A DNA stretch of 64,000 nt. Origin: Acidobacteriota bacterium. GTDB taxonomy: Bacteria; Acidobacteriota; Vicinamibacteria; Vicinamibacterales; CAVVIG01. The notes beneath the pieces were generated by a model. That model worked only from the letters and a program-made list of their open reading frames with translations, was not told where the DNA came from and made no database searches. Shown one piece after another: positions 1,284-34,951 of the stretch; the stretch's first letter is position 1, and each line of letters begins with the position of its first letter. The position numbers and the translations under genes are program-made. The stretch covers positions 1 through 64,000 of the forward strand of contig JAFDVO010000038.1 in the NCBI GenBank assembly GCA_018268955.1, read 5' to 3'.

Positions 1284-2873
1284 ATGAACCCTGTCGTGCG
1301 GGTCGTCGTGTGCGCGATGCTCCTGCTCGCGGCCGCCTGCACGCATGTCCCGCCGGCCGTACAGTCCGCCTCTGCCCCTCCCGTCGCGCAGCATCCCGAC
1401 CATCGTGAGCAGCTGTTCGTGGCGGATGAGCTCGTGCGCCGTGGCTGCTACGACTGCATGAAGGACGCGCTCGCCGGCTATGAGGCGCTGTTGGCCGACC
1501 CTGAGGTCGGCAGCCGGGCGCGCGAGTCCGCGGTGCGAGTGTCCCTGCTGCTTGCGCTGCGTGAGACGGAACTCGGGCTTGCACGCGGCAAGTACGTCCA
1601 GCACGCGCGCCAGTTGATGGGGCCCGTCGAATCTGCATCACCCGAGCTGCCAGGGCTCGTCGAAATCGCGGAGGTGATCGCGAGCGGGCCGGTGGGGTTC
1701 ACGCGCACCGCGAGCACGGACGCGCAGATCGCCGCGATGCTGACCGTGTCGCGCAGCCAGGAACGGTGGGCGACGATCCTGCGGAACCTGATCCCGGGGG
1801 ACCTCACGGCATCGTACCTGTGGGTCAGCCTGGCCTGCGGGGCGTACGGGTCAACGTTTCCGGACACAGACAGCCGGGCCGCCGTGCTGCGGATGGTCGA
1901 GGGGGTGCCGCTCATCGCGTACAAGGTGGCGACCGCCTGCGGACTGACCAGCGCTGAACCGCTGGAGGCCCAACTCGCAACGGAGCCTCGCTTCCACGAG
2001 ATCCACTATCACCTCGGCCTGCTGGCGTTGGGCGGCCAGACCTCCCGCGCCCCGGACCTCGACGCGGCCGATACGCGTTTCCGCGCAGCCTACGCGTGGC
2101 GGCAGGACTGGCCGACGCTCACGCTCGCGATGGCCAACGTCGCCATGTCGGCGGAGGATTTCCCGAGGGCCTTCGACTACTACCAGCGCACGCTGGCCCT
2201 GTCGTCCACCGAAACCGACGCGCTGCTCGGGACCATCCGGGCGCTTACGTACTCGAATCGCCACGAGGAGGCAGTGAGCGCCTGCGACCGCCTGCTCGCA
2301 AGCGGGCGTAATCCGGGCGAGGCGCACTACTGGCGCGCGTTGAACCTGGCGCGCCTGAAGCGCGACGACGAAGCCTGGAGTGACATCGAGCAGGCCGCGT
2401 CCGCCCTGATGAACGCCGAAGTGCCGAAGCTCGCCGGCATCCTGGCCATCAACCGCCGTGACTACGCGACCGCCCGGCAACGACTCGAACTGGCATCGGT
2501 CCGTCGGCGTGCCGACTGCGAAACCTCGTACTACCTGCAAGCCGTCTTGGCCGAGCAGAAGGATTGGGACGCGACAGCGCGCGTCGCTTCTGAGGCGGGC
2601 TCCTGCTTCGACAACGAGGAAGCGTCGATCCAGCAGGAGCTCGCGGTCGTGCGCGCATCGCTGATGGCCGAGGATCGCCGGGCCCGGCTCGTCGCGCGTC
2701 GCGAACAGCAGCTCGCCTCGAACGCGCGCATGCGGGCCACTGTCTGGTACAACGCGGCCGCCGCGAACTTCAACCTGTCGCGTGCCGACGAGGCGCGCCG
2801 CTTCGCCGAGAAGGTCGCCGACGACGTGTTCTACGGCGACCGTGCGCGCTCCCTGTTGGATCGGCTCCGGTGA
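1284..2873 (+). CDS. TPR-repeat lipoprotein, about 529 aa
   Basis: The start at 1284 gives a lipoprotein signal peptide: basic N-region, hydrophobic core, and a LAAAC lipobox with the Cys at about residue 19. The mature protein is thus probably anchored to a membrane. Alternative in-frame starts are ATG 1245 and ATG 1263, which only lengthen the N-region; TTG 1215 lies upstream of the predicted transcription start and is unlikely. The middle of the protein has TPR-like helix pairs with regular A/L/Y spacing, followed by an Arg-rich helical C-terminus. TPR lipoproteins generally scaffold envelope complexes. I cannot assign a partner. It stands alone, with typA following in the same direction after a 107-bp gap. 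Confidence 0.75.
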   Translation: MNPVVRVVVCAMLLLAAACTHVPPAVQSASAPPVAQHPDHREQLFVADELVRRGCYDCMKDALAGYEALLADPEVGSRARESAVRVSLLLALRETELGLARGKYVQHARQLMGPVESASPELPGLVEIAEVIASGPVGFTRTASTDAQIAAMLTVSRSQERWATILRNLIPGDLTASYLWVSLACGAYGSTFPDTDSRAAVLRMVEGVPLIAYKVATACGLTSAEPLEAQLATEPRFHEIHYHLGLLALGGQTSRAPDLDAADTRFRAAYAWRQDWPTLTLAMANVAMSAEDFPRAFDYYQRTLALSSTETDALLGTIRALTYSNRHEEAVSACDRLLASGRNPGEAHYWRALNLARLKRDDEAWSDIEQAASALMNAEVPKLAGILAINRRDYATARQRLELASVRRRADCETSYYLQAVLAEQKDWDATARVASEAGSCFDNEEASIQQELAVVRASLMAEDRRARLVARREQQLASNARMRATVWYNAAAANFNLSRADEARRFAEKVADDVFYGDRARSLLDRLR

Positions 2874-2923
2874 GCCTGGGCATCGGCACGATGTGGACCT
2901 TCGGTCCGCACGGTGGCGCGCGT

Positions 2924-2951
2924 AATCCGAAATCTCCACTCTGAAATCTGC
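2924..2951. repeat. Degenerate heptamer array, AATCTGA-like family (4 units)
   Basis: Four consecutive 7-nt units in perfect register (starting 2924, 2931, 2938, 2945), each A-A/C-T-C followed by a variable triplet. It lies between the TPR gene and the typA promoter. It is short and degenerate, but it matches the period of several clearer arrays elsewhere in the window. Confidence 0.45.
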
Positions 2952-2968
2952 AAGCAGGCGAATTCTGC

Positions 2969-2974
2969 GATACT
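2969..2974 (+). promoter_or_regulatory. Predicted -10 element of typA
   Basis: GATACT (4 of 6 matches to TATAAT) ends exactly 6 nt before the typA ATG, so transcription would begin at or next to the A of the start codon. The intervening GGAGAG could instead be read as a closely spaced ribosome binding site. The same hexamer-N6-start layout recurs at about ten other genes here. Confidence 0.45.
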
Positions 2975-2980
2975 GGAGAG

Positions 2981-4807
2981 ATGTCCGTAGCAAATCCCTT
3001 CAGACGTAATGTCGCCATCATCGCGCACGTCGACCACGGCAAGACGACCCTGGTCGATGCGCTGCTGCACCAGAGCGGGACGTTCCGCGCCAACGAGCGG
3101 GTCGCCGAACGCGCGATGGACAGCAACGAGCTCGAGCGTGAGCGCGGCATCACCATCCTCGCCAAGAACACCGCGGTCCACTACAACGACCTGCTGATCA
3201 ACATCTGCGATACGCCGGGGCACGCGGACTTCGGCGGCGAGGTCGAGCGGACGCTGTCGATGGTGGACGGCGTGATGCTGCTCGTCGACGCGTCGGAAGG
3301 GCCGCTGCCGCAGACCCGGTTCGTGCTCCGCAAGGCGCTCGAGCGCCGGCTGCCACCGATCGTGGTCATCAACAAGATCGACCGCCCGGACGCCCGGCCG
3401 CAGGAAGTGCTGAACGAGGTGTACGACCTCTTCATCGACCTTGACGCGTCTGAAGAGGCGCTCGAGTTCCCGGTGCTCTACACGAACGCGAAGGCGGGGA
3501 CGGCGACCACGGACCAGAAGGGTGGCGGGGAGGACCTCAGGCCGCTGTTCGATGCGATCGTCGCCCACGTGCCGCCGCCGAAGGGCGACCCGGACGGGTC
3601 GCTCCAGCTGCTCGTCGCCAACCTCGACTCCAGCGAGTACGTGGGACGGATCGCGATCGGCCGCATCTTCAACGGTCGCGTGAAGATCAACGATCCGGTG
3701 TCGGTCTGCAAGCTCGATGGCACGATTCAGAGCACGAAGGTGACGAAGCTCTACGCCTTCGACGGGTTGAAGCGCGTCGACATCGAGGAAGCGGCCGCCG
3801 GCGACATCGTGTGCCTCGCCGGCATTGCGGACATCACGATTGGCGAGACGATCGCCAGCGGTGAGAACCCGAAGCCGATCCCCCCGATTGCGATCGACGA
3901 ACCGACGGTCTCGATGATCTTCGGCGTCAACACATCGCCGCTGTCCGGTCGCGACGGGCAGTACGTGACGTCACGGCAGTTGAAGGATCGCCTCGACCGC
4001 GAACTGCTCGGCAATGTGTCCATCCGCATGGAGCCGACCGAGACGCCCGAGCAGATGCGGATCATCGGCCGTGGTGAGCTCCAGCTGGCCATCCTCATCG
4101 AGATGATGCGCCGCGAGGGGTACGAGCTGCAGGTCTCCCGTCCGGACATCGTGACCAAGACGGTCGACGGCGTGCTGATGGAGCCGGTCGAGCTGCTCGT
4201 GATCGACGTCCCCGAGGATCACCAGGGCGTCGTCATTGCGAACGTCGGCGAGCGCCGCGGCGTGATGAGCAAGATGGTGAACAACGGCAGCGGCCGTGTC
4301 CGCCTCGAGTTCCGCATCCCGGCCCGCGGCCTCATCGGGTTCCGCTCGCAGTTCATGACCGACACGAAGGGCACCGGCATCATGAACCACATCTTCGACA
4401 GCTGGGAGCCGTGGCACGGTGCGATCCCGGCCCGCGCCACCGGCGCGCTGGTTGCAGACAGGTCGGGTGTGGCGACGGCCTACGCCTTGTACAACATCCA
4501 GGAGCGCGGGGAAGTGTTCATCGACCCGGGCGTCACGGTGTACGAGGGCATGATCATCGGCGAGAACTCGCGCGCGAGCGACATGGACGTCAACATCACC
4601 AAAGAGAAGAAGCAGACGAACATGCGCGCGTCCACGGCAGACGAGGCGATCCGCCTCATCCCGCCACGGAAGCTGAGCCTCGAGCAGGCCATCGAGTTCA
4701 TCAATGACGATGAGCTGGTCGAGGTGACGCCGAACAACATCCGGCTGCGCAAGCGGGTCCTCGCAGCGAACATGCGGCCCAAGAAGCAGGGCGCCGGGCC
4801 CGAGTAG
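2981..4807 (+). CDS. typA: TypA/BipA ribosome-associated translational GTPase
   Basis: 608 aa, the normal length for TypA. The G1 loop AHVDHGKTT is at residues 15-23, the switch region contains RERGITI near 54-60, G3 DTPGH is at 77-81, and G4 NKID is at 131-134. The EF-G-like domains III and V and the TypA-specific C-terminal domain follow. TypA binds the 70S ribosome and assists ribosome assembly and stress adaptation. All GTPase motifs are intact. Glucoamylase-like and downstream genes follow with very short gaps, so they may be read on the same transcript. Confidence 0.97.
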
Positions 4808-4814
4808 CGCACCA

Positions 4815-6641
4815 GTGGCAGACGGCGGTTACCGGCCCATCCGCGATCACGCGATCATCGGAGACGGCCGGACCGCCGCGCTTGTCACGACCGACGGCAC
4901 GGTCGACTGGCTCTGCCTGCCGGACTTCGACGCGCCGAGCGTCTTCGGCTCCATCCTCGACTCGCAGCATGGCGGCTCGTTCACCCTCGCGCCCGCCGTT
5001 CCCTTCCAGTCCCACCAGCACTACACACCCGACACGAACATCCTCGAGACACGCTTCACGACCAGCACGGGGGCCGTGCGCGTCGTCGACGCGCTGACCT
5101 TGCCGAACGACCGTCTCTGCGGACAGCGCGAGCTCGTCCGCATCGTCGAGTGCCTCGAGGGCGAGGTGCCGCTGGCGTGGGCAATCGAGCCGCGGTTCGG
5201 GTACGGGGCGCGCAGCGGGACACCCGCCGACGCGGGACCGGCGGCCGTGTGGCGAGACGATGTGGATGCGCTCGCGGCGCGCAGTTGGGAACTCGGCGCT
5301 CCCACGTGGCACGGCGGTGCGACGTGGGCTGCGACGTGCCGCATGCACGCAGGTCAGCGCGGTGTGATCGCGATCTCGTGGGCAACCGGCGAGCCGCTGG
5401 TGTTTCCGACGAGAGCCGGAGTCGAGGAGCGCCTGCTGGGGACCGAGCAGTTCTGGAAGCACTGGGCGGGGGAGCGGCCGTATGCCGGGCCGTTCAGGGA
5501 AGCGGTCATTCGAAGCGCACTTGCGCTGAAGCTGATGATCTACGCGCCGAGCGGCGCGTCGGTGGCCGCGCCGACGGCGTCGCTGCCCGAGGAGATCGGC
5601 GGGGTGCGGAACTGGGACTACCGATTCTGCTGGATCAGGGATTCGGCGTTCCTCATCGACGCGCTGCTGCGCCTCGGCTGCCGTGAAGAAGCGCGCGCGC
5701 TGTTCTGGTGGTTCATGCAGGCGACCACCCTCACCGCTCCGAGGCTCCAGGTGCTCTACCGGCTCGACGGAAGCGACGACGCGGCCGAGCGTACGCTGCC
5801 GCTCGACGGCTACTGTGGGTCGCGGCCGGTGCGCATCGGGAACGCGGCTGTGGACCAGCACCAGCTGGATCTCTACGGCGATCTCTTCGAGACCATCTGG
5901 CTCTACGCGAAGGGCGAGCACGAACTGGATCGCGACACAGGCGTGCGCGTCGCGGACATGGCTGACTACATCTGCGAGATCTGGCGACACCCTGATGCGG
6001 GCATCTGGGAAGTGCGCGGCGACGCGAGGCACTTCACGCACTCCAAGGTGATGTGCTGGGTCGCCCTCGATCGGGCCATCCGCCTCGCCGATGAGGGAGA
6101 CGTGCCGTCACGGCGCGTCGACCGGTGGCGTGCCGAAGCGGCGGCCATCGTGTCGTTCGTGGACGAGCAGTGCTGGAGTGACGAGAAGCGCTCCTACGTG
6201 CAGCACGCCGGAGGCGAGTCCGTGGACGCGAGTCTCCTGATGCTGTCGCTGATGGGATTCGGCGGGAATGCGAGCCCTCGCGTGATGGGGACGGTCGACG
6301 CGGTATGCCGCGAACTCCGCCGCGGGCCGTTCGTGTTCCGCTACCTGAACGAGGATGGCCTCCCCGGGTCGGAAGGCTGTTTCCTCAACTGCTCCTTCTG
6401 GCTGGTTGGCGCCCTGGCGCGCGTCGGTCGCCTGGACGAGGCGAACGCCTTGATGACCGACCTGCTCGCACGGGGCAACCACGTTGGACTGTTCGCCGAG
6501 GAGATCGATCCCGCCACCGGTGCGTTCCTCGGCAACTTCCCGCAGGCGCTCGTCCATCTCTCGTTGATCGATGCCGCGCTGGCGATCGGCGAGGCGGAGC
6601 AGACGAGCCAGGGCCCGAAGAAGGGGAAGGCGAGCGCATGA
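4815..6641 (+). CDS. Glycoside hydrolase family 15 protein (glucoamylase/trehalase-like), 608 aa
   Basis: The N-terminal super-sandwich domain contains the family signature DWLCLPDFDAPSVF at about residues 31-44. The (alpha/alpha)6 barrel carries NWDYRFCWIRDS around 263-275 and SEGCFLNCSFWLV around 517-530, where the Glu of SEG is the likely catalytic base. No signal peptide is seen, so it is probably cytosolic, like many bacterial GH15 enzymes that trim storage glucans or hydrolyse trehalose. The GTG start is 7 nt after the typA stop, and the stop overlaps the next gene by 4 nt (ATGA), indicating one transcription unit. Whether it acts on glucan or trehalose cannot be told from the sequence. 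Confidence 0.9.
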   Translation: MADGGYRPIRDHAIIGDGRTAALVTTDGTVDWLCLPDFDAPSVFGSILDSQHGGSFTLAPAVPFQSHQHYTPDTNILETRFTTSTGAVRVVDALTLPNDRLCGQRELVRIVECLEGEVPLAWAIEPRFGYGARSGTPADAGPAAVWRDDVDALAARSWELGAPTWHGGATWAATCRMHAGQRGVIAISWATGEPLVFPTRAGVEERLLGTEQFWKHWAGERPYAGPFREAVIRSALALKLMIYAPSGASVAAPTASLPEEIGGVRNWDYRFCWIRDSAFLIDALLRLGCREEARALFWWFMQATTLTAPRLQVLYRLDGSDDAAERTLPLDGYCGSRPVRIGNAAVDQHQLDLYGDLFETIWLYAKGEHELDRDTGVRVADMADYICEIWRHPDAGIWEVRGDARHFTHSKVMCWVALDRAIRLADEGDVPSRRVDRWRAEAAAIVSFVDEQCWSDEKRSYVQHAGGESVDASLLMLSLMGFGGNASPRVMGTVDAVCRELRRGPFVFRYLNEDGLPGSEGCFLNCSFWLVGALARVGRLDEANALMTDLLARGNHVGLFAEEIDPATGAFLGNFPQALVHLSLIDAALAIGEAEQTSQGPKKGKASA

Positions 6642-7974: not shown

Positions 7975-8081
7975 CCCGCGCCGCAACATCGCTCGACCGT
8001 CCGCAACGTCACCGCGCCTGCGCTCGCCTCAGCCCGACTGACCCGAGGGCCGGACGGTATTCCGTGGCACTTCGATTGCGA

Positions 8082-8110
8082 CGTCCTCCCCTCCATGGAG
8101 GAGAAGGACG
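8082..8110 (+). promoter_or_regulatory. 5' leader hairpin that includes the ribosome binding site of the DUF4142 gene
   Basis: CGTCCT (8082-8087) pairs with AGGACG (8105-8110), and between them lies the perfect 12-bp palindrome CCTCCATGGAGG (8090-8101). The Shine-Dalgarno GGAGG (8097-8101) is inside the stem, 11 nt before the ATG at 8113. In RNA this would partly hide the ribosome binding site, suggesting translational control. That is inference from complementarity alone. Confidence 0.4.
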
Positions 8111-8112
8111 GC

Positions 8113-9075
8113 ATGAAGAAGGTATTTGCGTACGGAACGATGATGATCGCGCTCGCGGCCGCGCCGGCCATGGCGCAGCAGACGAGCGGCGCCGGCTCGA
8201 GCAGCCGGCAGGGGTCGACCTCCTCGCAGGGGGCGGCGGCGCAGGGCGGAACCGCGTCTCAGGGGGGCAGCAGCGCCTCTGGATCGCAGGCGGGCACCAC
8301 GAACCGCGCCGGCGCATCGAGCCAGAGCGGCCGCAGCGCTCAGGCAACCGGCACGTCCGGCTCCAAGCAGGCAAACGCCGACCACGCGTTCGTCATGGAA
8401 GCCGCGATGGGCGGGATGGCGGAAGTCGAGCTGGGCCAGCTCGCGAGTGAGAAGGCGCAGAGCGACCAGGTGAAGCAGTTTGCCCAGCGGATGGTCACCG
8501 ACCACGGCAAGGCGAACGACGAGCTGAAGAGCCTGGCGCAGAGCAAGAACATCGCGCTCCCGACCGATCCGGGCGCGAAGCACAAGGCCACCAAGGACCG
8601 CCTGTCGAAGCTGTCGGGCGCGCAGTTCGATCGTGCCTACATGCAGGAGATGGTGAACGACCATCGCAAGGACGTGAGCGACTTCGAGAAGGAGTCGAAG
8701 AGCGGCAAGGACCCGGAGGTCAAGGCGTGGGCGGCGAAGACGCTGCCGACCCTCCAGGAGCACTACCAGATGGCGCAGGCGGCGAGCCGCGGCGCGGTCG
8801 GCACCTCCGGCACGAAGTCGTCGTCGGCCTCGGACAGCGATCGCACGCTGGGCGGATCGCGCGGCACGACCGGCAACTCGAACCGGTCGGGCAGCAGCAC
8901 TGACGCGTCCGGCGGGTCCAACACGTCGACGTCAGGCTCCGGTTCCTCGCACTCCGGCTCGTCCTCGGGCTCCGGCAACTCGGGCTCGTCGACCAGCGGC
9001 GGCTCATCGACCGGCGCAGGCTCCACGGGCGCAGGGTCGACTGGCAGCTCCACGGGCAGCGGGAACCCGCGTTAA
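8113..9075 (+). CDS. Secreted DUF4142 (ferritin-like) protein with Ser/Gly-rich tail, 320 aa
   Basis: The start at 8113 follows a strong GGAGG site and gives a clean signal peptide ending in AMAQQ; the ATG at 8095 lies inside that ribosome site and was rejected. After a low-complexity Ser/Gln/Gly linker, residues of roughly 95-230 match the DUF4142 four-helix domain (FVMEAAMGGMAEVELGQLA, then DHGKAND, then a second helix pair). The last 100 residues are almost wholly Ser, Gly and Thr. Members are periplasmic or outer-surface proteins induced by stress in many soil bacteria, without a defined reaction. The low-complexity tail suggests a flexible, possibly cell-wall-spanning segment. Confidence 0.88.
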   Translation: MKKVFAYGTMMIALAAAPAMAQQTSGAGSSSRQGSTSSQGAAAQGGTASQGGSSASGSQAGTTNRAGASSQSGRSAQATGTSGSKQANADHAFVMEAAMGGMAEVELGQLASEKAQSDQVKQFAQRMVTDHGKANDELKSLAQSKNIALPTDPGAKHKATKDRLSKLSGAQFDRAYMQEMVNDHRKDVSDFEKESKSGKDPEVKAWAAKTLPTLQEHYQMAQAASRGAVGTSGTKSSSASDSDRTLGGSRGTTGNSNRSGSSTDASGGSNTSTSGSGSSHSGSSSGSGNSGSSTSGGSSTGAGSTGAGSTGSSTGSGNPR

Positions 9076-25397: not shown

Positions 25398-26681
25398 GTG
25401 GACGGAACCCTCCTTGCGGCGGTCGGCGGCGCGCTTGGGGTCGGCGGGCTGATCGGCTGGCTGGCCGCCCGGCCGGCCGCGGCCAGGCTTCAGGCGCAGC
25501 TCGAGCAGGAGCGTGCCTCTCGCGCGGCACAACTCGCCACGTGGGAGCAGGCGGAAGCTTCATTCCGAGATGCCTTTGCGTCGCTTGGCGCGCAGGCGCT
25601 CAGCCGGAACAGCGAGGACTTCCTGCGACTGGCCGAGACCCGCCTGCGCGAGGCGCGTGCCGAAACGACGGCCGAGGTCGACGCGCGGAAGCGGGCGATT
25701 GAGGACCTGCTCGCGCCGATGGCACGAACGCTGGACCGTGTCGATGCCGAGGTGCGCGAGGCGGAGCGACGCCGGCACCAGGAAAGCGCGGCGCTCCTGC
25801 AGCGGATCGCCACGCTGGACGGGCAAGGGCGCGAACTGCAGGCGGAAACGCGCCGGCTGGTCGATGCGTTGAAGCGGCCAGGCGTGCGCGGTCGCTGGGG
25901 TGAGCTGCAGTTGAAGCGGGTCGTCGAACTCGCCGGGATGATGGAGCACTGCGACTTCACGGAGCAGCAGACGCTCGCATCGGCCGATCGGCGCATTCGG
26001 CCCGACCTGATGGTCCGCTTGCCCGGTGGCAAGACCGTCGTGGTCGACGCCAAGGTGCCGCTCGACGCGTACCTGCGTGCCCTCGAGGCGCCGGACGAGG
26101 CGAGCCGCCGGGCCCAGCTCGCGGATCACGCCAGGCAGGTCCGATCGCACCTGACGCAACTCGGGGGCAAGAGCTACTTCGCCGACGTGCCGGGCAGTCC
26201 AGAATTCGTGGTGATGTTCCTGCCAGGGGAAATGTTCTTCAGTGCTGCGCTCGAGCAGGACCCGTCATTGATTGAGTTCGGCGTCGAGCGGAAGGTGATT
26301 CCGGCGAGCCCGACGACGCTCATTGCGCTCCTGCGCGCGGTGGCGTACGGCTGGCAGCAGGAGGCGATCGAGGAGAACGCACGGCAGATCAGCGAGCTGG
26401 GGCGCAACCTGTACGAATCGGTCCGCTCGCTCGCCAGGCACTTCTCGGATCTCGGGGCCAAGCTCACGTCCAGCCTTGATGCGTACAACCGCGCGGTCGG
26501 ATCGCTCGAAGGCAACGTGCTGATCAAGGCCCGCCGCTTCAAGGATCTCCAGGCGGCCGCCAACACCGACGCGATCGAGCGCATCGAGCCGATCGACCGG
26601 GTGCCCCGAGCGCTCCAGGCGCCGGAACTGAGCGACGGGTTGCCGTTCGACGCAACCGACACCGTGGAGCAGGTCAGATGA
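25398..26681 (+). CDS. rmuC: DNA recombination protein RmuC, 427 aa
   Basis: The N-terminal membrane-anchor-like segment (GGALGVGGLIGWLAARP) is followed by a coiled coil (about residues 30-145). The RmuC nuclease-like core then has RGRWGELQLKRVVELAGM, RPDLMVRLPGGKTVVVDAKVPLDAYL and FVVMFLPGEMFFSAAL. RmuC limits recombination at inverted repeats and is thought to be a PD-(D/E)xK-type nuclease; the D and VDAK residues are visible. The stop overlaps the SDR start by 4 nt. It is notable that a gene linked to inverted-repeat stability sits in a region rich in inverted short arrays. Confidence 0.93.
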   Translation: MDGTLLAAVGGALGVGGLIGWLAARPAAARLQAQLEQERASRAAQLATWEQAEASFRDAFASLGAQALSRNSEDFLRLAETRLREARAETTAEVDARKRAIEDLLAPMARTLDRVDAEVREAERRRHQESAALLQRIATLDGQGRELQAETRRLVDALKRPGVRGRWGELQLKRVVELAGMMEHCDFTEQQTLASADRRIRPDLMVRLPGGKTVVVDAKVPLDAYLRALEAPDEASRRAQLADHARQVRSHLTQLGGKSYFADVPGSPEFVVMFLPGEMFFSAALEQDPSLIEFGVERKVIPASPTTLIALLRAVAYGWQQEAIEENARQISELGRNLYESVRSLARHFSDLGAKLTSSLDAYNRAVGSLEGNVLIKARRFKDLQAAANTDAIERIEPIDRVPRALQAPELSDGLPFDATDTVEQVR

Positions 26682-27469
26682 CGACCGTCTTTGCGACTGG
26701 CGTGCTGGCGGGTCGGCGTGCGCTGATCACCGGAGGCGGCACCGGCATCTGCCGTGGCATTGCCCTCGCCTTTGCTGCCGCCGGCTGCGACGTGGCGATC
26801 AGCAGCAGGCGAGCAGAGCATCTCGATCCCACGGTGGCCGAACTGGCCGCGCTGGGTGTGCGGGCCTGCGCCGTCGTCGGTGATGTCCGGAAGCCAGACG
26901 ATGTGGACGCTGTCATAGCCACGACCGTGTCCACGCTTGGCGGGCTGGACATCCTGGTCAACGGGGCGGCCGGCAACTTCGTCGCACGCGCCGAGGACCT
27001 CTCGCCGAACGGCTTCGGGACGGTGGTGGACATCGACCTGAAAGGAACGTTCAACGTATCCAGGGCGGCGCTGCCGCATCTCCGCGCGAGCGGGCGTGGT
27101 GTCGTGCTGAACATCAGCGCCACGCTGCAGTTGCTCGGCACGATCGGTCAGTCGCACGCCGCAGCAGCGAAGGCGGGCATCGACTCCCTCACGCGGACCC
27201 TTGCCGTCGAGTGGGGCGGATACGGCATTCGCGTCAACGGCGTCGCGCCAGGGCCGGTGGACGGGACCGAAGGGGTTCGGCGTCTGGTGTCGGCCGAGGC
27301 GCGTCAGGTGATTGCGGCGCAGTGCCCGCTCGGGCGCATGGCGACGATCGAGGAGATCGCCGATGCGTCGATGTTCCTGTGCTCGGACGCGGCGCGATTC
27401 GTGACCGGCGTCACACTCGTGGTCGACGGGGGGCTGTGGCTGCGCTCGTCAAGCACCCTGGGTATCTAG
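26678..27469 (+). CDS. SDR family oxidoreductase, 2,4-dienoyl-CoA reductase-like, 263 aa
   Basis: Rossmann fold with ALITGGGTGICRGIA, NGAAGNF and the C-terminal VTGVTLVVDGGLW. The usual Y-x3-K active site reads SHAAAAK, so the catalytic Tyr is absent. Peroxisomal-type 2,4-dienoyl-CoA reductases show the same replacement (a V/S-H-A-x-x-A-K pattern), which supports assignment to this group. It would reduce polyunsaturated enoyl-CoA with NADPH during fatty-acid oxidation. The start overlaps rmuC (ATGA). It is cytosolic. Confidence 0.85.
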   Translation: MTTVFATGVLAGRRALITGGGTGICRGIALAFAAAGCDVAISSRRAEHLDPTVAELAALGVRACAVVGDVRKPDDVDAVIATTVSTLGGLDILVNGAAGNFVARAEDLSPNGFGTVVDIDLKGTFNVSRAALPHLRASGRGVVLNISATLQLLGTIGQSHAAAAKAGIDSLTRTLAVEWGGYGIRVNGVAPGPVDGTEGVRRLVSAEARQVIAAQCPLGRMATIEEIADASMFLCSDAARFVTGVTLVVDGGLWLRSSSTLGI

Positions 27470-27547
27470 GGTGCCTCACCACACCCCGGTGCGTCACGGC
27501 GGAGCGAGCGCAGGTGAGCGCGGTTTCATCGGGACCCGCGTAGCGCT

Positions 27548-28309
27548 GTGTCCTTCGTGCTCGCCCTCTCCGTGTTGGCATTCTTGAAAGAGGCGCTCAG
27601 GGTGCGGCAGGTCGGGCTGTTCGATGCAGAGGGACCGCTGGATAGGGAAGCGGCACCCACCACGGCCGAGCCCTCGTCGGCGGCTGCCGCGGCGGGAGCG
27701 CAACGGCCGCTCGAGCCGCAGGTGGCGCCAAGGCCGACCGAGCCGCCTGTGGTGTTCGTCCGTCACCCGCGTGCGCGCCGATACCTGATCCGCGTGAAGA
27801 CCGACGGCACCGTGCGCGTCACGATCCCGAGCCGCGGGTCGAAGCGTGAAGCGATGCTCTTCTACCAGCAGCAGCGCGCCTGGGTCGCGCGTCAGCAGCA
27901 ACGGGTCGCTGCGCTTCGCCGCGAGCTGCCGGCCGATCTGCCGCCAGCCGAGCAGCGGCGCCTTCGCGCCGAAGCGGCACGGGTGCTTCCACCACGCCTG
28001 CTGGAACTGGCCGCCTCATTGGGCCTCGCCGTCAGGAAGGTCAGCATCCGGAACCAGAAGCACCGGTGGGGCTCGTGCTCGACGTCAGGCACGATCTCCC
28101 TGAACTGGCGGCTTGTCACAATGCCCGACTGGGTTCGCGACTACGTGCTGTATCACGAGCTGATGCACATGAAGCGCATGGACCACTCGCCTGCGTTCTG
28201 GAAGCTGGTGGCCAGCGTCTGTCCCAATTACCAGGAGGCCAGGCGCTGGCTGCGGCGCCATGCGCACGCCCCGCACGCCGGCGCCGACCGTGCTCCGGAC
28301 GCGGACTAA
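27548..28309 (+). CDS. YgjP-type (DUF45) metallopeptidase-like protein, 253 aa
   Basis: The conserved C-terminal half contains NQKHRWGSCSTSGTISLNWRL and the HExxH-type zinc motif HELMH (His203 and His207), then DHSPAFWKLV with a third ligand candidate. YgjP/SprT-like M48-related proteins are putative zinc peptidases of unknown substrate. The first 90 residues are Ala/Pro-rich and poorly conserved, and the GTG start at 27548 is uncertain because no ribosome site or -10 box fits it. It is convergent with the CarH-type regulator. Confidence 0.82.
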   Translation: MSFVLALSVLAFLKEALRVRQVGLFDAEGPLDREAAPTTAEPSSAAAAAGAQRPLEPQVAPRPTEPPVVFVRHPRARRYLIRVKTDGTVRVTIPSRGSKREAMLFYQQQRAWVARQQQRVAALRRELPADLPPAEQRRLRAEAARVLPPRLLELAASLGLAVRKVSIRNQKHRWGSCSTSGTISLNWRLVTMPDWVRDYVLYHELMHMKRMDHSPAFWKLVASVCPNYQEARRWLRRHAHAPHAGADRAPDAD

Positions 28310-28321
28310 CGGCGCCGCGTT

Positions 28322-29239
28322 CTAGAAACGGGCGCCGAGCCGCACGAGCTGCTGCTCGAGCGCCTCGAACGTCGGCAGTGCCACGGCACGTCCCTTCAGG
28401 CGCCGCGCCATCCGCTCTGCGCCGCGGCCCCCGAGCCACAGCTCCACGCGGGCATCGAGCCGCCTGGCCACCGCCTCGATATCCTTGTCGATCCGCGCGC
28501 TCTCGACCGCGTCGGTCACGCCGAGCACCACGACGTCCAGGTCGACGACCTTCGTGACGGCGACGATGTCGTCGGCCGGCATGTCGGGGCCGAGGTAAAT
28601 GGTGCCGAGACCGCCGCTCGCCGCGAGCAGGGCCGAGCCCAGCGTGCCGAACTCGTGGCGTTCGCCTGACGGTGTCGCGAAGAGGATCCGTTCCGGCACC
28701 CCGGCCTTCTGATGGACGCGTAGCAACGATCCGAGCACATTGCGGACGCTGGCCGAGAGCATGTGCTCGTGCGCCACGCGCCCCCGACCACTGTGCCACC
28801 GCTCGCCCACCTCGACGAGCACCGGGGTGAGGACCTCGCGCAGCAGATCAGGCGCACGCAGCAGGGCCGCGGCCCGCGCAAGTTCCGTCTCGACCGTCGT
28901 CGCGTCGAACCGTTCGAGCGCCGCGATGATCGTGTCGATGATGGTGCTGCCGGCCGGCGCTCGCTCGGGCCCGTCGGTCGTCATCTGGACGGCTGCCGTG
29001 GCGAGCTGGGCGAGCTGCTCGTCCGTCATGTTGGCGACGCGGCCGATCGCGTGCCCCTTCTCGACTGCCTCGCGGAGCAGCCGCACCCGCCGGACATCCG
29101 CGTCGGTGTACACCCGACCGCGTTCGTCCCGGACCGGTGTGACGGCTCCGTAGCGCCGTTCCCAGGCGCGCAGCGTGTCGATGCTCACGCCTGTCATCAG
29201 CGAGACGGCGCGAATGGGGTAGGTGACCGTCGATTTCAT
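28322..29239 (-). CDS. CarH/LitR-type B12-binding MerR photoreceptor regulator, 305 aa
   Basis: MerR-type DNA-binding domain (residues 8-75, ending in EKGHAIGRVAN) with the signature TGVSIDTLRAWERRYGAV. A four-helix cobalamin-cap domain follows, with W148-H149 (GERWHSG) and E158-H159 (AHEHML). The Rossmann B12 domain has GERHEFG with H195. These match Trp131, His132, His142 and His177 of Thermus CarH, the residues that sense light through adenosylcobalamin. In CarH, the dark tetramer represses and light breaks it. The start at 29239 fits the family; 29275 would add 12 residues. It is the last gene of the minus-strand half of the locus and probably represses its own operon. Confidence 0.88.
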   Translation of the reverse strand: MKSTVTYPIRAVSLMTGVSIDTLRAWERRYGAVTPVRDERGRVYTDADVRRVRLLREAVEKGHAIGRVANMTDEQLAQLATAAVQMTTDGPERAPAGSTIIDTIIAALERFDATTVETELARAAALLRAPDLLREVLTPVLVEVGERWHSGRGRVAHEHMLSASVRNVLGSLLRVHQKAGVPERILFATPSGERHEFGTLGSALLAASGGLGTIYLGPDMPADDIVAVTKVVDLDVVVLGVTDAVESARIDKDIEAVARRLDARVELWLGGRGAERMARRLKGRAVALPTFEALEQQLVRLGARF

Positions 29240-29276
29240 CAACCTCAACTGGGCAGCGGACTTGGGGGCGGACATG

Positions 29277-29675
29277 TCAGCGGGCGCTCACGTAGAACGT
29301 TGCCATGGCAACAAGCGCGCAGGCGATGGTACCCCACGCGATGTCCGCAATGGTGACGATGACCGGCCACTGGGCGAGCGTGGCGTAGTTGGTAAGGTCG
29401 TAGACGCCGTACACGACCAGGCCGAGCAAGGCGCCCCACGCTGCGGCGCCCGCGAGCGATTCGGCTCGCGGCACGGCGAGCGCGGCAACACCCAGGCCCA
29501 GCAGCACGTAGACGAGTGCCGCCGCCGGCCAGATCGGTGCGAGGCTGCCATCGACGATCCGGCCGATCGAGGCGAACTGCCTGACGTAGAAGTCCTTCAT
29601 GACCACGCCGAGCCACAGTCCATCGAGCACAAGGAAGCCGAGAATCGAGACGCCTATCGAGAGAAGTGAGGGCAC
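29277..29675 (-). CDS. DUF2177 family membrane protein, 132 aa
   Basis: Four hydrophobic helices and the family patterns FLVLDGLWLGVVMKDFY near the N-terminus and VYGVYDLTNYATL in the third segment. DUF2177 proteins are found beside cyclopropane-fatty-acid-synthase-like and DUF1295 genes in light- or singlet-oxygen-induced clusters of many bacteria; their reaction is unknown. It starts at GTG 29675, 3 nt past the preceding stop, and ends 1 nt before an alternative CarH start, so coupling is tight. Confidence 0.87.
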   Translation of the reverse strand: MPSLLSIGVSILGFLVLDGLWLGVVMKDFYVRQFASIGRIVDGSLAPIWPAAALVYVLLGLGVAALAVPRAESLAGAAAWGALLGLVVYGVYDLTNYATLAQWPVIVTIADIAWGTIACALVAMATFYVSAR

Positions 29676-29678
29676 AGG

Positions 29679-30728
29679 TCAGCCTTTCCGCACGAAGCGG
29701 TAGTGCGAGACGAACCATTCGCGGCCGTCCTGATAGCGGAACAGTTCAGCACACGCCATGAAGAAGATGCGCCAGCGTGCCCGCCACCGCCGCACGTCCC
29801 GGGCGGTGGTCTGAGGAGACGTCGCGTAGGTGGAGGCGAGGATGCGGTCGATTGGCGCGCGGGCCGCGTCCATGTTGGCCAGCCAGGCATCGCACGTTTT
29901 CGCGTAGTGCTCGCCGTTCACCTGCCAGTGCGCCTCCAGCGCCATGTGCTCCTGGAAATGCAGCAGCAGGTCGTCGCTCGGCATCGTGCCGCCGGTGAAG
30001 AAATGCTCCGCCATCCAGTCGGAGGCGTCGCGGGCCTCGAAGGGATAGGCGTATTCGCGATGCGCGAAGATGTGGACGAACAGCCGTCCCCGCGGCGCCA
30101 GCCACGAGTGGATGCGTTCGAGCAGACGTCCGTAGTTGCGCATGTGCTCGAACATCTCGACGGACACCACGCGATCGAACGGCCCGCCGTCCGCCGGCTC
30201 GAAGGCATTCATGTCGGCCGTGACGACCCTGACGTTGCGCAGCCCCCGATCGGCCGCGCACTGCTCGATGAACGTTCGCTGCGAATGTGAATTCGACACC
30301 GCCACGATCTCGCTGGTGGGGAAGCGCTGCGCCATGTAGAGCGTCAGCGATCCCCAGCCGCACCCGAGCTCGAGGATGCGGTGGCCGTTCTCGATTGCGG
30401 CGCGCTCCACCGTGAGCCGCAGCATCGCCTCCTCGGCCGCGTCGAGCGTCGTCGTGCCGGGCTCCCACAGGCCGCTGCTGTATTTCAGGTGTGGGCCGAG
30501 GACGTGATGGAAGAAGGCGGCGGGCACCTCGTAGTGCTGGACGTTGGCGGCCTCCGTATGAATGGCGATCGGGCTGCGCTTCAGCTCGTCGATGAAGGCG
30601 GCCTTCCGATTGAGGCGCGACTCCTCGCGCAGGCGCACCCGGAGCAGGGAGCGGATGCCCGCCCGGACGATGGGGTCGGGCACGAGGTTCTGCTCGAGCA
30701 GCGGTTCGTACCAGGCTGTGGTTTTCAT
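29679..30728 (-). CDS. Cyclopropane-fatty-acid-synthase family SAM methyltransferase (paralogue 1), 349 aa
   Basis: The ATG at 30728 overlaps the DUF1295 stop by 4 nt. The N-terminal MKTTAWYEPLLEQNLVPDP is followed by VQHYEVPAAFFHHVLGPHL, the Mycolic_cyclopropane_synthase start motif. The SAM motif ILELGCGWGSLTLYMAQ comes next, then VVSVEMFEHMRNY. The protein ends RFVRKG. Members transfer a methyl group from SAM to double bonds of membrane fatty acyl chains, making cyclopropane or related branched or furan precursors. This one is shorter at the N-terminus than the paralogue at 33668 and may use a different lipid substrate (inference). Confidence 0.88.
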   Translation of the reverse strand: MKTTAWYEPLLEQNLVPDPIVRAGIRSLLRVRLREESRLNRKAAFIDELKRSPIAIHTEAANVQHYEVPAAFFHHVLGPHLKYSSGLWEPGTTTLDAAEEAMLRLTVERAAIENGHRILELGCGWGSLTLYMAQRFPTSEIVAVSNSHSQRTFIEQCAADRGLRNVRVVTADMNAFEPADGGPFDRVVSVEMFEHMRNYGRLLERIHSWLAPRGRLFVHIFAHREYAYPFEARDASDWMAEHFFTGGTMPSDDLLLHFQEHMALEAHWQVNGEHYAKTCDAWLANMDAARAPIDRILASTYATSPQTTARDVRRWRARWRIFFMACAELFRYQDGREWFVSHYRFVRKG

Positions 30729-31510
30729 CCTCTCGGCACCCATGGAAAGAAGACACTCGTGGTCTGTTGATAGCGGCGGTAATCGTCGCCGCGGCTGCGG
30801 AGCGCCTGCGCTTCGGTGGCGGGAATGCCCGTGACACGGAAGAGCAGGTAGAGCATGGCGAGCGGGCAGGCGAGCGCGAGCACACCCCACGGCGACGCCG
30901 CGGCAAACGCCGCGTAGGCGACCCACATCAGCCACTCGAAGAAGTAGTTGGGATGGCGGGAGTAGCGCCAGAGACCGACGCGGCACGTGCGCCCCCGGTT
31001 TGCCGCATCCGCCTTGAAGGCTTCCAGCTGGCGGTCGGCGATCAGTTCACCCGCGAACGCCACGAACCACAGCAGCAGGGCGGACTGTTCCAGCGTCGTG
31101 AGGCCCACGTGCGGATTCGACGCCGCGAGCCACGCCGGGAGCGCGAAGAAGACCGCCGCGATCGCCTGCGCCTGGAAGAACCAGAAGAAACGCGCATCCG
31201 CTGCGGCGCCCCACGCCTGCCGGAGTTGCGCGTAGCGTCCGTCCTCTGGGCGACCAACGATGCGGTCGCGGAGCAGGTAGGTCCCCAGCCGAAGACTCCA
31301 CACGCCGACCACGACCGCAATCGCGACGCGGCGGCCAACCCACCCTGAGGACAGCACGCCCGCCACCGCCGCCAGGGCGCCGACCGCAAACACCCATCCC
31401 GCATCCACGATGCCCGCGTTGCGTGTCCGCACCTGCACCGCCCAGAGGGCCGTCATGCCCACGCTCACCGCGAGCAGCCCGCCCAGCGCGAGCTGTACCG
31501 TCGTCCACAT
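30725..31510 (-). CDS. DUF1295 family membrane protein (steroid 5-alpha-reductase-like), 261 aa
   Basis: Hydrophobic throughout with six to seven helices. The C-terminal signature LWRYSRHPNYFFEWLMWVAY is typical of DUF1295 and resembles the isoprenylcysteine methyltransferase/steroid reductase fold that binds a lipid tail. The reaction is unproven; reduction of an unsaturated lipid is plausible. I prefer ATG 31510 because the TATCAT box at 31523-31518 ends 7 nt upstream, making the message leaderless; ATG 31519 overlaps the box itself. It leads the minus-strand operon of the light locus. Confidence 0.84.
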   Translation of the reverse strand: MWTTVQLALGGLLAVSVGMTALWAVQVRTRNAGIVDAGWVFAVGALAAVAGVLSSGWVGRRVAIAVVVGVWSLRLGTYLLRDRIVGRPEDGRYAQLRQAWGAAADARFFWFFQAQAIAAVFFALPAWLAASNPHVGLTTLEQSALLLWFVAFAGELIADRQLEAFKADAANRGRTCRVGLWRYSRHPNYFFEWLMWVAYAAFAAASPWGVLALACPLAMLYLLFRVTGIPATEAQALRSRGDDYRRYQQTTSVFFPWVPRG

Positions 31511-31517
31511 GTCGTCC

Positions 31518-31546
31518 ATGATATGTCATGGACAAACACTTGACAA
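31518..31546 (-). promoter_or_regulatory. Sigma70-type promoter of the minus-strand half of the light locus
   Basis: On the minus strand, TTGTCA (31546-31541) and TATCAT (31523-31518) each match the sigma70 consensus at 5 of 6 positions, and the spacer is exactly 17 nt. Transcription would begin near 31511, at the DUF1295 start codon. The -35 box lies inside the three-box operator described separately. The palindrome CCATGA-TATG-TCATGG (31516-31531) overlaps the -10 region. Confidence 0.7.
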
Positions 31547-31556
31547 GTCTTGAACA
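31529..31556. promoter_or_regulatory. Putative CarH operator: three T-N-N-A-C-A boxes at 11-bp spacing
   Basis: On the plus strand, TGGACA (31529-31534), TTGACA (31540-31545) and TGAACA (31551-31556) start exactly 11 nt apart in the same orientation. The middle box can be a plus-strand -35 element and overlaps the minus-strand -35 element. As I recall, structural work on CarH found head-to-tail 11-bp repeats with an nTnnACn core bound by three of the four DNA-binding domains of the tetramer. The fit to that layout, next to a CarH-type gene cluster, is strong but binding is inferred. Confidence 0.68.
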
Positions 31557-31579
31557 GTCTGGCAGTCTCTCAACCACAG

Positions 31580-32830
31580 ATGAAGCGCATTGCTGTCGTC
31601 GGAAGCGGGATCGCAGGTCTCTCCGCGGCGTGGCTCCTGAGCCGCCGCCACGAAGTGCACCTGTTCGAGCGGGACACCCGACTCGGTGGGCACACCCACA
31701 CGGTGCTCGCGGAGAGTTCGAGCGGTCCCGTGGCGCTCGACACCGGGTTCCTCGTGCACAACGACCGCACCTACCCGCGTCTGGTGCGGCTGTTCCGTGA
31801 AATCGGGATCGACACCATCGATTCGGACATGTGCTTTGCGGTCGCGTGCGCGGGCACCGGCCTCGAGTACAGCAGCCGCGGCGCGCGCGGCTTCTTCGCG
31901 CAGCCGCGGAACCTCCTGAATCCCGCACACTTCGGCCTGCTCTCGGAGATCGTCCGGTTCAACCGCGAGGCCCCGCGGCTCCTGAACCGTCCGGACGCTG
32001 ACAGCCTCACGCTTGGTGAGTTCCTCGACGCCCGTCGCTTCAGTGAGGTGTTCACGCACCGGTACCTGCTGCCGATGGCCTCGGCGATCTGGTCGGCCTC
32101 GCTCGCGTCGATCAGGGCCTTCCCGGCGCTCACGATGATCCGGTTTCTCGACAATCACGGTCTGCTCGCCATCACGGGGCAACCGGTGTGGAAGGTGGTC
32201 AAGGGGGGAAGCCACACCTACATCCCGAAGCTGACGGCGCCACTGGGGCAGCGGATCACGACCGGCGTCACGATTGCGGGCATTGCGCGGGACGAGCAGG
32301 GGGTCACGTTGCGCTTTACCGACCGGCCCACGCTGCGTGTCGACGACGTGGTGCTCGCGTGCCACGGCGATCAGGTGCTGCCGTTGCTCGACGACGCGAC
32401 CGACACCGAGCGCGACGTGTTCGGCAGCTTCCGCACGACGACGAACCACGCGTGGCTGCACACCGACGCGTCCGTGCTGCCGACCAGGGAAGCGGCGCGT
32501 GCGTCGTGGAACTACAGGCTCAACGGCGAGACCGATACGGCGCCGATGGTGACCTACGACCTCAATCGCCTGCAGGGGCTCGACACGCGGGAGCAGTTCT
32601 GCGTGACGCTGAACCCGAGCGGCGCGATAGACGACCGGAAGGTGATTCGCAAGATCGTCTACCAGCATCCGCTCTACGACCGTGCGGCGATTCAGGCGCA
32701 GGCACGATGGGATGCCGTGAGCGGCGTGCGGCGCACGCACTTCTGCGGCGCCTACTGGTTCTATGGATTCCACGAGGACGGCCTGCGGTCGGCCGTGCGG
32801 GTCGCCAATGCACTGGGGGTCGAGTGGTGA
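31580..32830 (+). CDS. FAD-dependent amine-oxidase-type oxidoreductase of the light locus, 416 aa
   Basis: The start ATG 31580 gives the dinucleotide-binding motif at once: KRIAVVGSGIAGLSAAWLL, followed by the ERDTRLGGHTHT segment. The C-terminal HFCGAYWFYGFHEDGLRSA supplies FAD contacts. This flavoprotein is typically encoded with DUF1365 and a cyclopropane-fatty-acid-synthase homologue. In some alphaproteobacteria related genes take part in singlet-oxygen-induced furan fatty-acid formation (family knowledge, applied here by inference). It leads the plus-strand half and its stop overlaps the DUF1365 start. Confidence 0.88.
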   Translation: MKRIAVVGSGIAGLSAAWLLSRRHEVHLFERDTRLGGHTHTVLAESSSGPVALDTGFLVHNDRTYPRLVRLFREIGIDTIDSDMCFAVACAGTGLEYSSRGARGFFAQPRNLLNPAHFGLLSEIVRFNREAPRLLNRPDADSLTLGEFLDARRFSEVFTHRYLLPMASAIWSASLASIRAFPALTMIRFLDNHGLLAITGQPVWKVVKGGSHTYIPKLTAPLGQRITTGVTIAGIARDEQGVTLRFTDRPTLRVDDVVLACHGDQVLPLLDDATDTERDVFGSFRTTTNHAWLHTDASVLPTREAARASWNYRLNGETDTAPMVTYDLNRLQGLDTREQFCVTLNPSGAIDDRKVIRKIVYQHPLYDRAAIQAQARWDAVSGVRRTHFCGAYWFYGFHEDGLRSAVRVANALGVEW

Positions 32831-33660
32831 GCCTGCCGAAACCGGGTGTCTACGTCGGGACCGTGCGTCATCGACGGACCAGTCCCGTCTCCCACGCCTT
32901 CACGTACCCACTGTTCATGGTGCTGCTCGACGTCGACCGCATCCCCGCGCTGATGCGCGCGTCGCGCCTGACCGGCTACAACCGCTGGAACTGGGCCTCG
33001 TTCCATGAGGCCGATCATCTTGGCGATCCGTCGCGTCCTTTGCGGCAGCGTCTGGCGATGGATGCGGCCGCACACGGCCACACCCTGCCGGACGGTCCGA
33101 TCTTCCTGCTCACCCACCTGCGCTATCTCGGGTACTGCTTCAACCCGGTGTCGTTCTATTACTGCTACGACAGGTCGGAGCAGTTGCGATTGGTGCTGGC
33201 CGAGGTGAACAACACGTTCGGGGGTCACCATCACTACTGGCTGGAACCGTCGCAGGCGCCACCACGCGCCGCCTCGCCGCGATGGCAGCACGCCGAGCCG
33301 CGGACGTACCGGGCGGCGAGCCAGAAGGCGTTCTACGTGTCCCCCTTCATGGCCGCCGACATGACGTATGCGTTCGCGTTCACGGATCCCGGCGAGCGCC
33401 TGTTGATGCACATGTCGCTCGAACGCCTGAGTGCCGCCGAAACGCCGCACGCGTTCGACGCGTCTCTAGTGCTGAACCACCGCCCATGGACCGCGCGCAC
33501 GATCGCCGGAGCGCTCATGCGCTTTCCGATGATGACGGCCTCCGTCATCGCCGCCATTCACTGGGAAGCGGTGAAGCTCTGGTGGAAGGGGTTGCCGATT
33601 GTGCCGCGACCGACTCCTAGCGGAGAGTACTCGGCCACCCCCGGCCCCGTCTGGCAGTGA
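32827..33660 (+). CDS. DUF1365 family protein, 277 aa
   Basis: GTG start overlapping the FAD oxidoreductase stop (GTGA). Family hallmarks: VGTVRHRRTSPVSHAFTYP at the N-terminus, LRYLGYCFNPVSFYYCYD in the middle, and KAFYVSPFMAADMTY. No signal peptide is evident. The biochemical role of DUF1365 is not established, though it is nearly always encoded next to this type of flavoprotein and CFA-synthase-like methyltransferase. A lipid-modification role is inferred from that linkage. Confidence 0.88.
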   Translation: MSLPKPGVYVGTVRHRRTSPVSHAFTYPLFMVLLDVDRIPALMRASRLTGYNRWNWASFHEADHLGDPSRPLRQRLAMDAAAHGHTLPDGPIFLLTHLRYLGYCFNPVSFYYCYDRSEQLRLVLAEVNNTFGGHHHYWLEPSQAPPRAASPRWQHAEPRTYRAASQKAFYVSPFMAADMTYAFAFTDPGERLLMHMSLERLSAAETPHAFDASLVLNHRPWTARTIAGALMRFPMMTASVIAAIHWEAVKLWWKGLPIVPRPTPSGEYSATPGPVWQ

Positions 33661-33667
33661 GCACACC

Positions 33668-34951
33668 ATGACCCTCATCGACACGCTCGCGAAGAAGATG
33701 CTGCTCTCCCGTCTTCCCGATGTGCAGGGAGGCACGTTGAACCTGTGCTCGTCCGCTGGCCTTGCGCGTTTCGGGGATCCCACGTCGCGCCGGTGGACCC
33801 ATGGTGAGCCGCTCGACAGTACAATCGAAGTGCACGACGACCGGTTTTATCGTCGCGCCCTGCTGGCCTCGGACGTCGGCATCGGCGAGTCGTTCATGGA
33901 CGGCGAGTGGACATCGCCAGACGTCGTCGCGCTCACGCGACTGATGATCCGCAACGCCGCGCTCGTGGAGCAGCGTGGTGGCCCCGGTCGCTGGGCGGTA
34001 CGCCTGATGGGAGGCATGGCCAGGCGGCTGCGCGACAACAGCCTCACGGGCAGCCGACGGCACATCCGCGAACACTACGATCTTGGCAACGACTTCTTCC
34101 GCCTCTTCCTCGACGAGCAGCACCTGATGTACTCGTCGGCGTACTTCGAGACCGGGCGCGAAACGCTGGAGCAGGCCCAGCAGAAGAAGCTCGATCTGAT
34201 TTGCCGGAAGCTGGGGCTGGGGCCCGGCGACCACGTGCTCGAGATCGGCACCGGATGGGGTGGGTTCGCCGTCTGGGCCGCGACCAAATACGGCTGCCGC
34301 GTGACCACGACCACGATCAGCGACGAGCAGTACCGGCACGCCTGTGACTGGGTTGCGCGGCTGGGGGACGCGGGATCGCGGATTACCGTGCTGCTGCAGG
34401 ACTACCGTCATCTCGAGGGGCAGTTCGACAAGATCGTCAGCATCGAGATGTTCGAGGCGGTGGGCCTCAATCACTATGACGACTACTTCTCAGCCGTGAA
34501 TCGCCTCCTGGCGCCGAACGGGTCGATGCTGCTCCAGACGATCACGGTCGACGACCAGCACTTCCCGCACTACCACGGCCAGCCGGACTGGATCGAGAAG
34601 TACATCTTCCCCGGGGGCGAACTCGCCTCGGTCGGCCAGATCCTCGGGTCGCTGTCCCGCGTCACCTCGATGTCGGTCTACCACGCCGAGAACTTCGGCA
34701 CCCACTACGCCAGGACGCTTCACGAATGGCGGGCGCGCTTCCACCGGCAGCTCGATCGCGTGCGGGCCATGGGCTTCGGCGAACGCTTCATCCGGATGTG
34801 GGACCTGTATTTCGCGTTCTGCGAGGCGGCGTTCCTCGAGCGGCACGCGGGCGTGTTCCAGCTCGTGTTGAACCGCAACTACAGCAGCGCGCGGCATTTC
34901 AACGAGCCGTGGTCGACGGAGCCGCAGGTCGTGCGTGCGGCGGTGGCCTAG
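33668..34951 (+). CDS. Cyclopropane-fatty-acid-synthase family SAM methyltransferase (paralogue 2), 427 aa
   Basis: A full-length family member. It has a lipid-binding N-terminal domain (about 1-125), then HIREHYDLGNDFFRLF (132-147) and LMYSSAYF, the SAM-binding VLEIGTGWGG (190-199), and a C-terminal region with QLVLNRNYSSARHF. It should methylate or cyclopropanate unsaturated acyl chains of membrane lipids. It ends the plus-strand half of the light locus, 7 nt after DUF1365. Its stop codon directly abuts the stop of the AsmA-like gene on the other strand with no base between. Confidence 0.92.
   Translation: MTLIDTLAKKMLLSRLPDVQGGTLNLCSSAGLARFGDPTSRRWTHGEPLDSTIEVHDDRFYRRALLASDVGIGESFMDGEWTSPDVVALTRLMIRNAALVEQRGGPGRWAVRLMGGMARRLRDNSLTGSRRHIREHYDLGNDFFRLFLDEQHLMYSSAYFETGRETLEQAQQKKLDLICRKLGLGPGDHVLEIGTGWGGFAVWAATKYGCRVTTTTISDEQYRHACDWVARLGDAGSRITVLLQDYRHLEGQFDKIVSIEMFEAVGLNHYDDYFSAVNRLLAPNGSMLLQTITVDDQHFPHYHGQPDWIEKYIFPGGELASVGQILGSLSRVTSMSVYHAENFGTHYARTLHEWRARFHRQLDRVRAMGFGERFIRMWDLYFAFCEAAFLERHAGVFQLVLNRNYSSARHFNEPWSTEPQVVRAAVA

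Follow-up and report, generated by a model that had tools for sequence, protein, structure and literature searches.

A CarH-like B12 regulator in a predicted light-gated furan fatty acid locus of an acidobacterium

Two divergent operons and the operator between them

The locus described here lies in a 64,000-nucleotide stretch of DNA (contig JAFDVO010000038.1, positions 1 to 64,000; hereafter the window) from the 4.77 Mb genome of an Acidobacteriota bacterium of the order Vicinamibacterales (assembly GCA_018268955.1). It spans positions 28322-34951 and consists of seven intact reading frames that form two divergent operons, one of which ends in the gene for a regulator resembling the B12 photoreceptor CarH, while the other encodes candidate enzymes of furan fatty acid synthesis. 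The gap that separates them measures about 70 bases. The minus-strand operon encodes, in this order, a DUF1295 membrane protein of the steroid-reductase/ICMT-like type (30725..31510; Pfam PF06966, expect value (E) 1.3e-65), a short CMAS-family methylase (29679..30728), a DUF2177 membrane protein (29277..29675; Pfam PF09945, E 7e-30), whose gene adjoins carH in most relatives, and the CarH-like MerR-B12 regulator, P0001 (28322..29275; Pfam MerR_1 and B12-binding_2). All junctions in this operon either overlap or are 1-3 bases apart. The plus-strand operon, likewise closely packed, encodes a flavin adenine dinucleotide (FAD) oxidoreductase (31580..32830; Pfam Amino_oxidase/NAD_binding_8), a DUF1365 protein (32827..33660; Pfam PF07103, E 4e-82) and a full-length methylase of the cyclopropane fatty acid (CFA) synthase type, again with a CMAS domain (33668..34951). 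The DUF1295 frame is open from 31519, and its start is probably at 31510 because the -10 box of the leftward promoter described below covers the upstream ATG. An earlier reading of this DNA from its letters and open reading frames (hereafter the original prediction) had named this set of a regulator, two CFA-like enzymes, an FAD oxidoreductase, DUF1365, DUF1295 and DUF2177, and every member of it is intact where it had been placed.

The gap between the operons contains a predicted operator (31512..31556), whose core at 31523-31545 is ATGTCATGGACAAACACTTGACA. It differs by one mismatch from TTGTCATGGACAANNNNTTGACA, which most close relatives carry, exactly or as a near copy, between their divergent operons. 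Such a site is expected 0.01 times by chance in 64 kb, and a genome-wide scan at ≤3 mismatches found this one site alone in the host genome. Since the same genes also stand together in about 20 other genomes, chance grouping of the genes is excluded.

Alignment of 33 sites gives TTGTCAA-N3-TTTGTC-ATG-GACAAA-N3-TTGACA, in which each side of the operator consists of two half-sites 11 bp apart and, in the relatives, the two pairs face each other symmetrically. The left outer half-site was outside the search pattern, and therefore the conservation of the left half counts as independent support. The TnnACA half-sites at 11-bp spacing agree with the repeat nAnnTnnACAn of the Thermus thermophilus protein, TtCarH (PMC8156234). 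In the aligned sites, -10-like signals lie 17 bp outside both outer half-sites. The copy in the window has a degenerate left outer half (31512-31518) and three TnnACA units at 11-bp spacing that run rightward through 31529-31556. A leftward sigma-70 promoter, TTGTCA-17-TATCAT (31518..31546, minus strand; 10/12 matches, shuffles 0.0), is embedded in the operator, and on the plus strand TTGACA (31540..31545) is at once the right outer half-site and the predicted -35 box of the rightward promoter.

Enzymes of a predicted furan fatty acid pathway

What is known of furan fatty acid biosynthesis comes mainly from phototrophic Alphaproteobacteria. In Rhodopseudomonas palustris and Rhodobacter sphaeroides, cis-vaccenoyl chains receive a methyl group from UfaM, UfaD, a nicotinamide adenine dinucleotide (NAD)/FAD protein resembling phytoene desaturases, gives the product 11Me-10t,12t-18:2, UfaO (DUF1365) inserts O2-derived oxygen to yield the furan, and FufM (RPA0924) then forms the dimethyl furan fatty acid (PMC7380195). 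The furan fatty acid 9M5-FuFA is destroyed by singlet oxygen, which kills cells unable to make 9M5-FuFA (PMC7380195).

The plus operon in the window unites a desaturase-like FAD protein, a DUF1365 protein and a CFA-type methylase, arranged as in R. palustris RPA2571-2570-2569, and the closest Protein Data Bank (PDB) relative of its methylase (33668-34951) is E. coli CFA synthase (6bqc, E 1e-61). We predict that this operon is ufaD-ufaO-ufaM, with an acyl desaturase, an acyl mono-oxygenase and an acyl methylase as its products. The original prediction had spoken of a membrane-lipid-modifying locus, which is correct but too general, since the genes present and their order suggest methylated furan fatty acids as the product.

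Two side observations concern these enzymes. The structural model of the UfaO-type protein (32827-33660) had no significant Foldseek match. It forms a beta-barrel with a C-terminal helix, and its similarity to nitrobindin- and fatty-acid/lipid-binding-type barrels (Z up to 7.7, not significant) hints at a ligand-binding barrel, a hint that was judged too weak for use. In five relatives (L060, L061, L064, L065 and L067), ufaD is preceded by a frame whose end carries a WHNNHH-type stretch, as is typical of membrane fatty acid desaturases; this would fit a substrate double bond formed within the same operon. In these five the operator does not stand directly before ufaD, and in several it lies beside carH.

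The methylase of the minus operon (29679-30728) has a different affinity. Its best PDB relatives are coclaurine and pavine N-methyltransferases of the plant coclaurine type (E 1e-63), to which we take the plant protein AT4G33110 to belong, whereas E. coli CFA synthase reaches only E 3e-25. Of the two enzymes that the original prediction called CFA-synthase-like, the name thus suits only the UfaM-type protein. The two methylases of the locus are 26% identical, the figure also reported for FufM versus UfaM, and FufM is 37.9% identical to AT4G33110 (PMC10940516). The minus-operon methylase, a candidate S-adenosylmethionine-dependent enzyme, probably belongs to the FufM group, the maker of dimethyl furan fatty acids. 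Because the three families stand in ufaD-ufaO-ufaM order and a FufM-type candidate accompanies them, the locus plausibly holds the entire dimethyl furan pathway.

The CarH-like regulator and its operator across genomes

P0001 aligns with TtCarH over its whole chain (282 residues; E 6e-26 with 3whp and 1e-25 with 5c8d). The top PDB matches of its AlphaFold model (pLDDT 88) are all TtCarH, over about 300 columns, and the predicted fold is complete, with a 4-helix bundle and a Rossmann domain. The Wx9EH capping motif is present (W160...E170-H171), as is the ExHx2G motif of the lower axial ligand (E205-R-H207-E-F-G210). All 34 relatives compared have W160, H171, H207 and G210, and 32 of them have E170. 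The light-sensing positions claimed at the outset are all found: W160-H161, E170-H171 and H207 within GERHEFG align with WH...EH and GERHEIG of TtCarH. The x41-SxV/T-x22-27-GG part of the cobalamin motif departs from the pattern at one position: the spacing, T254 and G282-G283 fit, and the Ser is replaced by Gly252. For this reason we call the protein CarH-like, not CarH, a step back from the original "CarH-type", which the motifs, the predicted fold and the conserved operator of 11-bp-spaced half-sites otherwise favor. According to a review, a CarH is defined by having both signature motifs, and CarA owes its B12 independence to the absence of Wx9EH (PMC8156234). We expect P0001 to function as CarH does. 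The host genome encodes a PduO-type cobalamin adenosyltransferase, and therefore the adenosylcobalamin cofactor can be made from cobalamin.

Two other identities were considered for this regulator and rejected. It is not a class II LitR, as the Rossmann domain is present in the model. Nor is it taken to control carotenoid synthesis, since the genome is without a match at the level of phytoene synthase and the operator occurs nowhere else in it. The sole SQS_PSY genes of the genome are a tandem pair, one above the HpnC cut-off and the other matching HpnD best, just below the cut-off, and both proteins score far under the phytoene synthase models. Separately, in the CarH-like proteins of L050 (G134, 3261-4190) and L056 (G083, 8019-8945), the Glu of Wx9EH is Gly while the gene neighborhood is retained, and their response to light or B12 may be altered.

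The distribution of the operator was assessed by scanning 162 genomes of the order for sites within 2 mismatches, with a close carH defined by E below 1e-60 (26 of the 162). Sites were found in 23 genomes, every one of them a carH genome. An operator at the carH/ufa locus is present in 22/26 genomes with a close carH and in 0/136 of the others (Fisher p 2e-23, a value that overstates independence because the genomes are related and kinship is uncorrected). A stray site with 2 mismatches in G005 (C129), within a glycosyltransferase-like frame away from carH, was treated as chance and excluded from this count. About 20 loci of the class have carH beside ufaD-ufaO-ufaM, usually together with the DUF2177 gene and in some cases with a FufM-type gene and DUF1295. 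The same association occurs in Verrucomicrobiota (L163), Gemmatimonadota (L170) and Gammaproteobacteria (L171, L185 and L187), always with DUF1295 and mostly with a FufM-type gene.

Further carH genes were seen in other settings. In L118 (Bryobacterales) and L119 (Betaproteobacteria), the same operator accompanies carH, with CMAS and DUF1295 genes close by, which suggests either deep conservation or transfer. In L058 (G002, 1678-5209), the operator of a second carH is perfect, and this carH diverges from a gene for an epimerase, after which comes ferrochelatase; light-induced ferrochelatase, if that is what this arrangement provides, would reduce the photosensitizer protoporphyrin IX. In L045 (G116, 2221-4374), the gene that faces another carH, one whose operator has 2 mismatches, encodes an FAD amine-oxidase-like protein outside the ufa cluster.

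Light-gated lipid synthesis and its alternatives

We read the locus, with a probability of roughly 0.7, as a light-gated furan fatty acid locus, in which an adenosylcobalamin-bound CarH-like repressor, opened by light, turns on furan lipid synthesis. In the dark, adenosylcobalamin would keep the repressor tetrameric on the operator between the operons, and both operons, carH included, would be silent, because promoter elements of each side fall within the operator. Light below ~530 nm would break the Co-C bond, the tetramer would dissociate and both promoters would open, so that carH would be self-induced in the light. UfaM would then methylate unsaturated acyl chains of membrane phospholipids, UfaD would desaturate them, UfaO would close the furan ring by inserting oxygen from O2, and the second methyl group would come from the FufM-type enzyme. 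The resulting furan lipids would quench singlet oxygen made by light. What is observed is which genes the locus contains, how they are ordered and how tightly they are packed, together with the motifs, the predicted fold, and the operator with its tight association with carH; cofactor binding, light response, DNA binding and repression, enzyme activities and lipid product are what we infer.

Several points weigh against this reading. The names UfaD, UfaO and UfaM rest on domain family and gene order, and the name FufM rests on an indirect chain through the plant protein AT4G33110. The -10 box of the rightward promoter is weak in the window, though clear in relatives. P0001 scores 120.7 bits against the NCBIfam CarH equivalog cut-off of 400, and the Gly that replaces its motif Ser recurs in 27/34 alignment rows. 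Finally, the His that follows the Trp (H161), the counterpart of which in TtCarH is the upper cobalt ligand of the light state, is kept in 19/34 relatives and missing in 15/34, and is therefore no strict marker of the family.

The enzymes might make some other modified lipid, with cyclopropane, methyl-branched or mycolate-like acyl chains in place of furan fatty acids, as several reactions are catalyzed within the CMAS family, the internal cis double bond that the substrate requires may lie at another position in this host, and the published furan pathway has no step for DUF1295 or DUF2177. We consider this unlikely, however, because DUF1365, a desaturase-like FAD protein and a CFA-type methylase in ufaD-ufaO-ufaM order are the published furan set (PMC7380195) and remain linked in some 20 genomes of the class. 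The regulator, for its part, might sense the supply of adenosylcobalamin or the cellular redox state, not light, which would make this a B12- or oxidant-responsive lipid operon. The patchy conservation of H161 and the presence of Gly252 would fit such a role, and CarA of Myxococcus xanthus binds B12 yet acts without it (PMC8156234). We hold this to be slightly less probable still, since Wx9EH, which is tied to light control and absent in CarA, is present in P0001, and the predicted product, a singlet-oxygen antioxidant, fits light. That the operator is bound by a different regulator, with the CarH-like gene merely adjoining it, is very improbable: MerR-type regulators as a class bind similar palindromes, but this operator follows carH and not ufa, being found in 0/34 genomes in which ufaO is present and a close carH absent, and standing directly upstream of carH genes distant from ufa (L054, L058, L063 and L040).

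The light-gated locus that we favor combines parts that all have known relatives. With CarH, or class I LitR, of T. thermophilus, Bacillus megaterium and M. xanthus, the regulator shares the MerR DNA-binding domain, 4-helix bundle and Rossmann cobalamin domain, Wx9EH and the lower-ligand His, and its operator of 11-bp-spaced TnnACA half-sites likewise overlaps a sigma-70 promoter. It differs in the Gly at the motif Ser and in its setting: the known examples govern carotenoid genes, whereas this host, within the phytoene-synthase superfamily, shows only the squalene-type HpnC/HpnD pair. The operator differs as well, being symmetric in the clade, with two facing pairs, where the known ones have three or four direct repeats. 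This symmetry is the distinctive new feature of the locus.

The remark in the original prediction that such gene linkage is known from light- and singlet-oxygen-responsive clusters in Proteobacteria was sound. The plus operon matches ufaD-ufaO-ufaM of R. palustris and R. sphaeroides in domain families and, for RPA2571-2570-2569, in order. However, RSP1087-1091 of R. sphaeroides is controlled through ChrR, with no B12 repressor (PMC7380195), and fufM (RPA0924) of R. palustris is unlinked to ufa, while the FufM-type gene here is part of the divergent operon. In Pseudomonas putida, ufaM is light-induced under class II LitR (PMC9758184), so that light control of ufaM by a repressor of the LitR family is already known. 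The P. putida and P. mendocina loci (PplR1, PmlR1/2) resemble the present one in having a LitR/CarH-family repressor and a cluster with a light-inducible FAD oxidoreductase and ufaM. They differ in that the Pseudomonas LitR has no B12 Rossmann domain and relies on a short LOV protein for its light signal, and in their operator, T(G/A)TACA-N12-TGTA(C/T)A.

To our knowledge, nearly all that is known of CarH concerns the switching of carotenoid genes, and our search of the open literature (paywalled papers lay outside it) found no paper connecting class I, B12-type CarH to furan fatty acids. The locus would directly join the two in soil Acidobacteriota and would supply a concrete output, open to testing, for CarH-like proteins, a large group as yet unstudied. 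A broader proposal is that a B12 photoreceptor is devoted to antioxidant furan lipids instead of carotenoids in several phyla, and that in Vicinamibacterales it works by way of a two-fold symmetric operator in which the -35 boxes of the two divergent promoters coincide with the outer half-sites. We put it forward tentatively, with the odds somewhat against it. In structural terms, the symmetric operator predicts something other than the solved CarH-DNA complex and, if true, needs an arrangement of CarH on DNA unseen in the Thermus structure. For the production of such lipids, it would also be useful that the four enzymes predicted for the dimethyl furan pathway are clustered together with a switch of their own.

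As for the adjoining part of the window (26678-28309), no connection of its genes with the cluster was found; they lie on the other strand, converging on carH, and encode a short-chain dehydrogenase (26678-27469) and a YgjP-like metallopeptidase (27548-28309).

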